Positions 1,186-63,352 of a DNA stretch of 64,000 nt are shown here, one piece after another. Under the pieces are notes generated by a model. The model was not told the DNA's origin. It did no database searches and saw only the letters and a program-made list of their open reading frames with translations. Position numbers and translations under genes: made by a program. Source of the DNA: Streptococcus parasanguinis (GTDB lineage Bacteria; Bacillota; Bacilli; Lactobacillales; Streptococcaceae). Every line of letters begins with the position of its first letter. Position 1 is the stretch's first letter. The stretch lies in contig NZ_CABFMD010000011.1 in the NCBI RefSeq assembly GCF_901875555.1, positions 248,001 to 312,000 of the forward strand, in the 5' to 3' direction.

Positions 1186-1188
1186 ACT

Positions 1189-1217
1189 GAAACCAGTAAG
1201 CTTAGCTTGCTGGTTTT
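1189..1217 (+). terminator. Intrinsic terminator after pcrA
   Basis: The stem AACCAG-t-AAGC pairs with GCTT-g-CTGGTT around a 3-nt loop and is followed by TTGCCTTTTAT, just after the pcrA stop. A related hairpin recurs at 1439-1467 beyond the structured element. Confidence 0.6.
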
Positions 1218-1226
1218 GCCTTTTAT

Positions 1227-1365
1227 AAAACTTCCCTTAGGTGAGGACGGACGGTAGCGACTCCCTTTGGGATTCCATACCTTAGATTTGAGCCTTCCGT
1301 CTCAAATCTACCGAGCAGGAGAAACAAATCTGTTTCTGTTACTTATCTCACGGCGGGAAGTTTCA
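1227..1365 (+). ncRNA. Structured RNA element, copy A (asd-motif-like?)
   Basis: This ~139-nt element is closed by a perfect 9-bp stem (1228-1236 with 1355-1363). Inside are three local hairpins: 1262-1272, 1284-1309 (AGATTTGAG/CTCAAATCT) and 1321-1336 (GAAACA/TGTTTC). A second copy lies at 63049-63186. The unpaired segments (GACGGACG, AGCGA, TTCCAT, CCGAG, TCTCAC-GCGG) are nearly identical between copies, while stems change on both sides, which argues for a selected RNA structure. The layout recalls the asd RNA motif of lactic acid bacteria, but I cannot confirm that family from memory. It may be an independent small RNA or part of a 5' UTR for the next gene. Confidence 0.55.
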
Positions 1366-1438
1366 ATGGTTCGCCTTCCGTTTCCTCAAATGCTTCTTAT
1401 GTTCACTATTTCTGTTATAAACTTTATTTCGAAAGTAG

Positions 1439-1467
1439 GAGCAAAGCCTAGTTTGCTGGTTTTGATT
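1439..1467 (+). terminator. Terminator-like hairpin downstream of structured element A
   Basis: AGCAAA pairs with TTTGCT around a short loop and is followed by GGTTTTGATTTTA. It repeats the 3' flank of the pcrA terminator (TTTGCTGGTTTTG against CTTGCTGGTTTTG). The structured element is therefore bracketed by similar terminators, as expected for a separate transcript. Confidence 0.4.
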
Positions 1468-5609: not shown

Positions 5610-6506
5610 ATGGACGGAATTATTAATGTAAAGAAAGAAGCGGGTATGACCTCGCACGATGTGGTCTTTAAACTGCGCAAAATTCTGGGGACCAAGAAGA
5701 TTGGCCATGGGGGGACCCTGGATCCGGATGTGGTAGGAGTGCTTCCCATTGCCGTTGGAAAGGCGACTCGGATGGTTGAATTCATGCAAGATGAGGGCAA
5801 GATCTACGAGGGTGAAATCACTTTGGGATTTTCTACCACGACGGAAGATGCCAGTGGGGAAATCGTTGAGCGGACGCCAGTAGAAGCACCCTTAGATGCA
5901 GCAGAGGTCGACCGTATGATTGCTCAGATGGTGGGTGAAATCAAGCAAGTACCTCCTATGTACTCAGCAGTCAAGGTCAATGGGCGCAAGCTCTATGAAT
6001 ATGCGCGTGCAGGAGAAGAAGTGGAACGTCCTGTCCGAAAAGTGACCATTTATGAGTTTGCAAGGACCGGAGAGATTGTTTATGAAGAGAAAACAGCCCG
6101 ATTTCCCTTCCGTGTCAAATGCAGTAAGGGGACCTATATCCGGACCTTGTCGGTGGATTTAGGGCAGAAACTGGGTTATGCAGCCTATATGTCCCACTTG
6201 ATCCGCACCAGTGCAGCCGGTTTGTCCCTTGAAGATGCCTTGACTTTAGAAGAAGTGGCTGAAAAAGTGGCGCAAGGAGATTTGAGCTTCTTTCGTCCTC
6301 TTGAAATTGGGACAGGAGATCTGGAAACAGTAGAGCTGACAGTAGAAGAGGTTGGCGAAGTCCAAGTGGGACGCTTTATTCCGGTTGAGAGTGAGGCAAA
6401 AGAGTTGGCTGCTTTTTACCAAGGAAAACTAGTGGCTATTTTAGAGAAAAGGGAAGAACTTTACAAACCTCGCAAGGTTTTTCTGACAGAAAGTGTGTTA
6501 CAATAA
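5610..6506 (+). CDS. truB: tRNA pseudouridine(55) synthase TruB
   Basis: This enzyme makes pseudouridine at position 55 of the tRNA T-loop. The N-terminal signature [15 protein letters not shown] holds the catalytic Asp38. [21 protein letters not shown] and [15 protein letters not shown] (near residues 110-135 and 170-185) are the other family blocks. A C-terminal TruB domain ends the 298-residue protein, the normal length. It is followed 4 bases later by ribF, the common Gram-positive pairing. Confidence 0.95.
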
Positions 6507-50539: not shown

Positions 50540-50675
50540 TGAGAAAAGCAGAAGTGAGAACTTCTCGCCTTGTGACGCAAGTTGCCTGGCCCCTACGGAT
50601 CAAGTTTCAGTAATGAAATACATCATGTAGTTCGGGCCTGTATTGCAGGTCCGTTCTTTGTTTTTCTCGAATAAT
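50540..50675 (+). promoter_or_regulatory. L20-type ribosomal protein leader of infC-rpmI-rplT
   Basis: The 170-base gap before infC holds a structured leader. It includes AGAAGTGAGAACTTCT (hairpin), and a terminal hairpin GGCCTG-TATTG-CAGGTCC followed by GTTCTTTGTTTTT, which looks like an attenuator. This matches the known firmicute L20 leader, where ribosomal protein L20 binds and causes premature termination. The assignment rests on position and hairpins, not on a covariance search. Confidence 0.7.
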
Positions 50676-62360: not shown

Positions 62361-62404
62361 AAATTCAGTCTACCATAAAACCTCAAAATATGCTATACTT
62401 GAAA

Positions 62405-62488
62405 GGTTGAAGAAATCAAACCTTCAACCCTTGGTGCTTAAGATCCTTTCGCCAAGCATATTACACGCGGAAAAACCGCTAAAGGAGA
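62405..62488 (+). promoter_or_regulatory. preQ1-II riboswitch of queT
   Basis: The core CTTGGTGCTTA (62430-62440), CGCCAAGCATATTACACGCGG (62450-62470) and AAACCGCTAAAGGAGAA match the streptococcal COG4708/preQ1-II class. The pseudoknot would cover the ribosome site AAGGAG. A 5' accessory hairpin GGTTGAA/TTCAACC precedes it (62405-62428), as in the wider form of this class. Confidence 0.9.
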
Positions 62489-62492
62489 ATAG

Positions 62493-63002
62493 ATGAAACA
62501 GTTAACTGCTCGTGATATGGCGCAAATTGCCATTGTTGCTGCGATTTATATCGTATTAACCATAACCCCACCTCTCAATGCCATGGCCTACTATGGCTAT
62601 CAATTCCGTGTTTCGGAGATGATGAATTTCTTAGCTTTCTACAATAAGAAGTACTTGATTGCGGTAACCATCGGTTGTATGATTGCTAACTTATTTAGTT
62701 TTGGATGGATCGATGTCTTTGTCGGTGGAGGTTCAACCTTTGTCTTCTTAGGACTTGGACTCATTCTATTTGGTCGTTTCAAAAACAAGTTCTTATTCGA
62801 CGGTCTTATTCGCTTAGACCATTTCTTGTTTGCGATTTTCTTTTCCATTTCCATGTTTACGATTGCCTTGGAACTTTATTACCTTCAAGGCCAACCATTC
62901 TTCTATAACTGGTTGACCATGGGAGTGGGTGAATTTGCATCCTTGATTTTTGGAGCGATTGTGATCAATCAACTTTCTAAACGGATTGATTTTACAAAAT
63001 AA
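62493..63002 (+). CDS. queT: Queuosine precursor ECF transporter QueT
   Basis: This 169-residue membrane S component of an energy-coupling-factor importer for preQ1/preQ0 carries five to six helices and the family phrases IYIVLTITPPLNAMAYYGYQFRVSEMMNF (residues ~18-46). The riboswitch directly upstream confirms the substrate class. It lacks its own ATPases and uses the shared ECF module. Confidence 0.92.
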   Translation: MKQLTARDMAQIAIVAAIYIVLTITPPLNAMAYYGYQFRVSEMMNFLAFYNKKYLIAVTIGCMIANLFSFGWIDVFVGGGSTFVFLGLGLILFGRFKNKFLFDGLIRLDHFLFAIFFSISMFTIALELYYLQGQPFFYNWLTMGVGEFASLIFGAIVINQLSKRIDFTK

Positions 63003-63048
63003 GAAAAGGGAGCTTTGTCTCCCCTCAAATGAAGGAAATTACTTCTTT

Positions 63049-63186
63049 GAAACTTTCCTTAATCGAGTACGGACGTCAGCGAACTTCGGAGAAGTTCCAT
63101 GACTAATGATTGAGTCTAAGGTCTCAATCATCCGAGTGCCTGAAACAATTGTGTTTCAGGCACTTTTCTCACAGCGGAAAGTTTCA
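63049..63186 (+). ncRNA. Structured RNA element, copy B
   Basis: This is the second copy of the element at 1227-1365. The closing stem GAAACTTTCC/GGAAAGTTTC is a perfect 10 bp. Hairpins are AACTTC/GAAGTT (63082-63096), ATGATTGAG/CTCAATCAT (63106-63131) and GTGCCTGAAACA/TGTTTCAGGCAC (63136-63163). Stems differ from copy A by paired changes while single-stranded blocks are kept. It lies between queT and ligA with no gene of its own; a TTTTTTTAATA run near 63300 follows. Confidence 0.55.
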
Positions 63187-63352
63187 GTATAAGTTTGAAA
63201 AACTCAAAATTAGAATCGTTATTTTTCAGATTTGATTTTTCATAGGTTATATTTGAATGGCTGATTTGTCTACGTTTTTAGAAGGAGCTTTGGCTCTTTT
63301 TTTAATACTAAGAATGCACTAAATTCAAGGCTAAATTAAGATTTTATGATAA

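Follow-up and report, generated by a model that had tools for sequence, protein, structure and literature searches.

The window analysed here, a 64,000-nucleotide stretch of Streptococcus parasanguinis DNA, carries near either end a short sequence that closely resembles the other. The pair raises the question of whether their common structure is a selected RNA fold, as the initial annotation proposed, or belongs to some other kind of element, and how it came to stand in both places.

Two folded cores and their family

The two sequences had been placed at 1227-1365 and 63049-63186 and described as aligning end to end. Pairwise alignment bore this out, with the core ends trimmed to 1364 and 63185. 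One five-helix fold is common to the cores at 1227-1364 (copy 1) and 63049-63185 (copy 2), in which P1 is the outer stem, P2 is short, and the multiloop holds the hairpins P3, P4, and P5. Three stem exchanges in which both strands had been said to change are correct in sequence and alignment. The fold is imperfect in each copy: copy 1 is mismatched at the first pair of P1 and within P4 and P5, and two P2 pairs are broken in copy 2. Folding energies compared with dinucleotide shuffles gave z values of -4.3 (plus strand) and -5.6 (minus strand) for copy 1 and of -7.6 and -9.3 for copy 2.

An alignment of 50 diverse cores (A3) was used to build a covariance model (R1), which scores 135.7 bits at copy 1 and 138.0 bits at copy 2; both are among the 50 rows, so these scores are not independent of the model. 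The third-best match in the window, at 9.6 bits (E 1.6), is noise. Standard pairs make up 93.0% of the 2,488 pair cells in A3, 303 cells are changed on both sides (shuffle mean 80.4), and 37 of the 50 pairs include such a change. The covariation score is 0.361, compared with 0.134 for shuffles and at most 0.098 for slid structures, and all measures lie above those of 500 shuffles and of all slid structures. Stem changes mostly keep pairing, and the fold is real and has the appearance of selection. The joining segments that had been called conserved are upheld in the 50 cores. Two loci (L115, and L148 with a match at 6036 on the plus strand) have an extra insertion within the P4 hairpin.

The initial annotation also suggested that the pair might belong to the asd RNA motif or be a multicopy family of its own. 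The asd RNA motif was described from streptococci. Its covariance model matched neither place in the Rfam search, even with E values up to 10 allowed, and it was rejected; the nearest Rfam relative is SSRC8_2 (RF02616), on the other strand and below threshold. The multicopy family was found. Tens of copies occur in several Streptococcus genomes (blastn, 59 genomes of the order), and a pattern scan of genome contigs recovered at least 120 stretches, with Streptococcus only among the 80 matches listed and no hits in viral contigs. R1 matches 257 of 284 Streptococcus genomes (E <= 1e-3); no more than 11 candidates were scored per genome, so copy numbers are lower bounds.

Among 198 genomes of the order Lactobacillales, 27 match R1, comprising 26 Streptococcus genomes and one from another family (G397), which has 48 matches. 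Its 22 distinct copies are 95.0% paired with a covariation score of 0.532 (shuffles 0.152), in an alignment that was fitted by R1 and so leans towards the model. The five-helix layout returns in this family with other stem sequences. The left gene points to the element in 19 of 20 G397 loci, and nine of the 20 copies begin 8-12 nt behind its stop. Copies at these loci (L357-L376) are partly in tandem and many lie directly behind a stop codon; at L362, L366, L369, and L370, locus-specific arms flanking the core pair like terminator halves when inspected by eye.

Terminators and ends around the cores

Flank alignments placed the cores in a larger unit that the initial annotation missed. Each copy follows a terminator hairpin, a conserved end (CAGATTGAAGACAAAGTC) sits between hairpin and core, and just beyond a right end (GTTTGTCTACATTCTAA) that hairpin occurs a second time. 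Relaxed patterns located both ends in 98 of 117 distinct copies. Both ends and complete flanks were available for 94 copies; in 46 of them the left-right terminator repeat (10-31 bp) lies above the 99% point of mismatched-pair controls; the other 48 fail this control because some ends were misplaced by the relaxed patterns and some copies are old. Judged by sequence, both places are cores of a ~250-bp non-autonomous insertion element (MITE) with IS1182-like ends, lying between two copies of a host terminator. Copy 2 and most other copies share their terminal inverted repeats with an autonomous element, the target is duplicated, relatives have empty sites, and the elements hold no transposase gene. 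A tblastn search for an IS1182 transposase within the window also gave no hit. At L202, L207, L222, and L226, IS1182-type ends stand ~320 bp apart around a core variant with much longer hairpins.

Copy 2 retains all parts of this arrangement on the plus strand. The left terminator copy (63003..63025) lies behind a queT-like ORF and is single in 16 of 25 relatives; a terminator-like site is also read on the minus strand at 63026-63005. It is followed by the left terminal repeat (63026..63048; 16 of 24 letters of CAGATTGAAGACAAAGTCTTCTTA), the core, an AT-rich right arm (63186..63262), the right terminal repeat (63263..63280; GATTTGTCTACGTTTTTA, with 14 of 22 aligned letters matching AATAGTTTGTCTACATTCTAA over 63261-63281), and the right terminator copy with its T tract (63281..63303), recognised from the duplicate GGAGCTTTGTCTC / GGAGCTTTGGCTC and from empty sites.

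Copy 1 is more worn. Its left terminator copy (1188..1218, plus strand), picked up by a terminator scan behind a pcrA-like gene, is a single hairpin in the element-free orthologs L302, L306, and L309; the core, a right arm (1365..1439), and a diverged right terminator copy (1440..1464), identified by sequence and by empty sites in relatives, follow on the same strand. Terminal repeats are not recognisable at either end of copy 1, which has lost them (11 of 23-24 letters, about chance). The gene names used here (pcrA, rmuC, queT, and ligA) are presumptive, taken from sequence features and position. The window also contains a preQ1-II riboswitch ahead of the queT-like ORF (62389-62495) and an L20 leader (50540-50668).

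The two loci differ in relatives. Of 26 relatives, 25 could be inspected at the copy 2 locus and none has the core: 16 have a single plain terminator, two have another plain terminator, and seven have a different repeat of ~180 bp. Since the window reads terminator-element-terminator at this locus, copy 2 is a recent insertion. At the copy 1 locus the core is present in the same orientation in seven of the 26 relatives and in the opposite orientation in 13; the remainder have a single terminator (n = 3), a remnant (n = 1), masked sequence (n = 1), or another context (n = 1). The opposite orientations are seen in L308, L312-L318, and L320-L324 versus L301, L304, L310, and L311, and could have arisen either by inversion between palindromic terminator copies or by two insertions. 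Three of the seven same-orientation copies have P5 replaced by the 180-bp repeat. This repeat (GAGAGTGGGACAGAAATCGG ... GGACTTTTGTCCCAGCCTC) takes the place of a terminator hairpin or of P5, as an inverted-repeat-replacing element would, at L275, L285, L290, L291, and L298-L300 (copy 2 locus) and at L303, L305, and L307 (copy 1 locus).

A candidate mover is found in the same genus. The transposase family PF13751 is present in four of eight genomes tested, and an intact copy in G027 (L195) codes for a transposase of the IS1182 family (443 bits on the curated family model, cut-off 270) bounded by the same ends as the element and set between two terminators. Homologs of this transposase occur in 80 of 284 Streptococcus genomes, including two (G085 and G190) in the group nearest the window. 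Both ends could be located in 19 of 30 fetched IS loci, and in 14 of these a stem-loop of 18-38 bp is duplicated with a score above the control maximum; L327, L342, L345, and L354 are IS copies without the duplication. The nearest genomes (G001, G025, and G031) gave no IS1182 transposase, and the window has none, so mobility in the window's own strain is putative, as is a transposase of that strain as the mover.

The end repeats shared with IS1182 copies, the terminator duplication, and the empty sites are visible in the sequences compared; from the shared ends and the type of target, we infer that an IS1182-family transposase moves the element in trans. It would recognise end repeats of the type CAGATTGAAGACAAAGTC / GTTTGTCTACATTCTAA and attack an intrinsic terminator at the 5' feet of its stem-loop, in an order of strand joining that we also infer, and repair would duplicate the whole stem-loop on both sides, so that the upstream gene would keep its terminator. 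The element resembles the IS1182 family and IS1272 of staphylococci in using inverted repeats (here terminators) as targets, and streptococcal IS1182 copies in its ends, but it has no transposase inside. The IS1272 model of Wan 2017 (PMC5678879) predicts stem-loop duplication if joining takes place at the 5' feet (pathway b), while IS1272 itself is reported there to replace its target stem-loop without target duplication; the element described here duplicates the stem-loop. These loci would be natural examples of a duplication that was previously only drawn as a possible IS1182-type pathway.

Divergence of core and arms after insertion

Orthologous copies at the pcrA locus allow the core to be compared with the rest of the element. 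In the opposite-orientation set (12 of 13 copies; L322, which has an internal deletion, was dropped), the core shows a mean pairwise divergence of 0.049, compared with 0.144 and 0.150 for the arms and 0.082 and 0.077 for adjacent coding pieces. Variable sites number 24 of 138 in the core versus 53 of 127 in the arms (Fisher p 1.4e-5). The same-orientation set (four copies and the window, with three copies bearing nested repeats dropped) diverges by 0.040 over the core and by 0.207 over the right arm, with a left arm that is too short for measuring. The stretch from the terminator to rmuC diverges as little as the core (0.055-0.058), and the core therefore behaves like adjacent functional non-coding DNA. 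Compensatory changes also occur within the locus, in P4 (TAGATTTGAG/CTCAAATCTA versus TATATTTGAG/CTCAAATATA) and, in the same-orientation set, in the arm pairs of P5, where the window's own P5 is a mixture of two arm types.

Another locus, from the mitis group, has 10 distinct filled sites (11 including a duplicate of the query strain) and 21 empty ones; here the core diverges by 0.054, the upstream flank by 0.085, and the arms by 0.094-0.105. The 138-nt five-helix core stays constrained after the ends decay, clearly at the pcrA locus and with a weaker contrast at the mitis-group locus.

Strand symmetry of the fold and its relation to SSRC8_2

Selection on one RNA strand should tolerate G-U oppositions in helices but not A-C. 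Mismatch gains mapped on a tree of 200 distinct cores were 39 G-U and 49 A-C in P2, P4, and P5, beside 127 double-change events; P3 was left out of this count since it is touched by the search pattern. For P2-P5 together the gains were 42 G-U and 62 A-C (p 0.06), and this includes an asymmetry in P3b (10 A-C, 0 G-U) that is biased, the pattern used for finding many copies having fixed one P3b base. The RNase P RNA control (30 of 40 Streptococcus genomes searched) gave 57 G-U and 1 A-C with 12.9% G-U cells, on a structure predicted from its own alignment by a program favouring canonical pairs. On internal branches only, the element has 9 G-U, 7 A-C, and 83 double changes and RNase P has 19, 0, and 60; the element's numbers are small here, mismatches on terminal branches may reflect dead copies decaying, and recombination between copies blurs the tree. 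In G397 the events are 16 G-U and 10 A-C. P5 has at its base a nearly fixed G-T opposition (175 of 200 cores), which was excluded from the pair counts; if it is a pair, it would favour a plus-strand RNA.

The large surplus of G-U over A-C at paired sites that marks a structured RNA read from one strand is not found in the element, and a plus-strand RNA was rejected for lack of any G-U excess. The initial annotation's "strong evidence for a selected RNA fold" is therefore doubtful; what is supported is a fold that looks selected, and a one-strand RNA is in doubt. Because nearly all retained pairs are Watson-Crick and mismatches are even on both strands, the core is most likely folded DNA or is used through both strands, and there is moderate evidence for a strand-symmetric fold that is probably at the DNA level. 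As the least certain step of the proposed mechanism, the core would act as folded DNA, in the form of extruded hairpins or of a single strand that a protein recognises, or else via both strands. The joining segment AGCGA may resemble the CS-6 motif of plasmid single-strand origins. Abundant compensatory change alone is not proof of RNA, and the ratio of G-U to A-C should be checked first.

Covariation could also arise at replication by template switching, with one hairpin arm corrected from the other and no selection on structure. The 127 double-change events beside symmetric single mismatches are of the kind that this process would leave, as is the mixed P5 of the window. It is nevertheless improbable, since the alignment has 24 invariant columns out of 152, including many unpaired ones, the five-helix layout occurs in another family of the order with different stem sequences, and the arms drift around a constrained core.

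A structure between convergent genes that serves RNA 3' ends on both strands, such as one protecting or terminating both mRNAs, would likewise demand Watson-Crick pairs only and fits the strand-symmetric mismatch gains. Gene context was compared in 74 of the 117 distinct copies that had two usable neighbour frames (three further copies lie inside a frame and one is far from genes; frames were called mechanically). In 61 of these the left gene is oriented towards the element, in 49 the right gene is, and in 37 both are. However, 24 of the 74, including both window copies, and 14 of 20 copies in G397 lie between two plus-strand genes, a setting that does not require reading of the minus strand, and the pcrA locus keeps the core in either orientation (seven and 13 of 26 genomes). 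We consider such a role unlikely.

The remaining RNA reading is tied to SSRC8_2, a relationship that the initial annotation did not recognise. On the minus strand, RF02616 has a match in each window copy, at 1252-1314 (48.2 bits) and 63074-63132 (37.7 bits), scores below the gathering score of 72 bits. On sequence, the two are homologs of this family, and we do not file them as members. Across the genus, minus-strand matches of the element to RF02616 occur in 244 of 284 Streptococcus genomes and exceed the threshold in 31 of them, including G001 (74.1 bits). The best locus (L261 in G212, a S. pyogenes-like genome; 340.8 bits for RF02616 and 69.5 bits for R1) reads in order terminator copy, end repeat, arm, core, end repeat, and terminator copy, and the structure that Rfam gives for SSRC8_2 pairs its outer ends, which are the terminator copies and repeats. 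SSRC8_2 therefore shares with the element a homologous core, end repeats, and two terminator copies at L261; it differs in being filed by Rfam as an sRNA gene and in not being described as mobile in the portion of PMC3675131 at hand. That portion reports S. pyogenes SSRC8 on northern blots with a 3' probe only, its mapping by circular RACE, and partial homologs in many streptococci, S. parasanguinis included; S. pyogenes is the only species from which a discrete RNA is known. The Rfam model is presumably that RACE sequence.

A family of small regulatory RNA genes of the SSRC8 type could accordingly lie on the minus strand, with the mobile ends merely spreading the gene. The S. pyogenes transcript and the genus-wide minus-strand matches speak for this, as do better folding on that strand in 140 of 200 cores and A-C gains slightly above G-U over P2-P5. 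A minus-strand RNA should, however, show a large A-C excess, comparable to the 57 to 1 of RNase P, and the excess is slight, with its strongest part in the biased P3b. Strand fold energies were set aside because a backward-read control shifted them as much or more (3.40 vs 1.62). Copy 1 has no minus-strand sigma-70 promoter and copy 2 has one weak 9-of-12 site (63368-63341), both results being near chance. We regard this reading as fairly unlikely.

We favour, as probable on balance, a MITE moved by an IS1182-family transposase that duplicates terminators and carries a constrained core acting as folded DNA or through both strands. A more tentative version, possible but the less probable of the two, makes the core a folded-DNA module of its own (extruded or single-stranded) that settles in or beside terminator hairpins, has IS1182-type ends in Streptococcus and none visible by eye in the G397 loci, is kept by selection after its vehicle decays, and was catalogued as an sRNA because transcripts cross it.

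IS1182 targeting of inverted repeats and SSRC8 as an RNA are already known. A search of the open-licence PMC literature by titles and abstract starts, with subscription journals outside its scope, found no report of SSRC8 as a mobile element or of an IS1182-type MITE in Streptococcus. Within that literature, SSRC8_2 as such an element, its genus-wide spread, its constraint after insertion, and its strand-symmetric covariation appear to be new, and an Rfam sRNA family would be recast as the transcript of a mobile element found in 257 of 284 streptococcal genomes. BOX, RUP, and SPRITE of pneumococcus are likewise short interspersed folded streptococcal repeats; according to PMC3049150, they are nearly confined to pneumococcus and S. 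mitis, whereas the element described here is genus-wide, and it is set apart from them by description. At L261, a match to SSRC8_1 (RF02529; 1056-1205, minus strand) adjoins the SSRC8_2 match.
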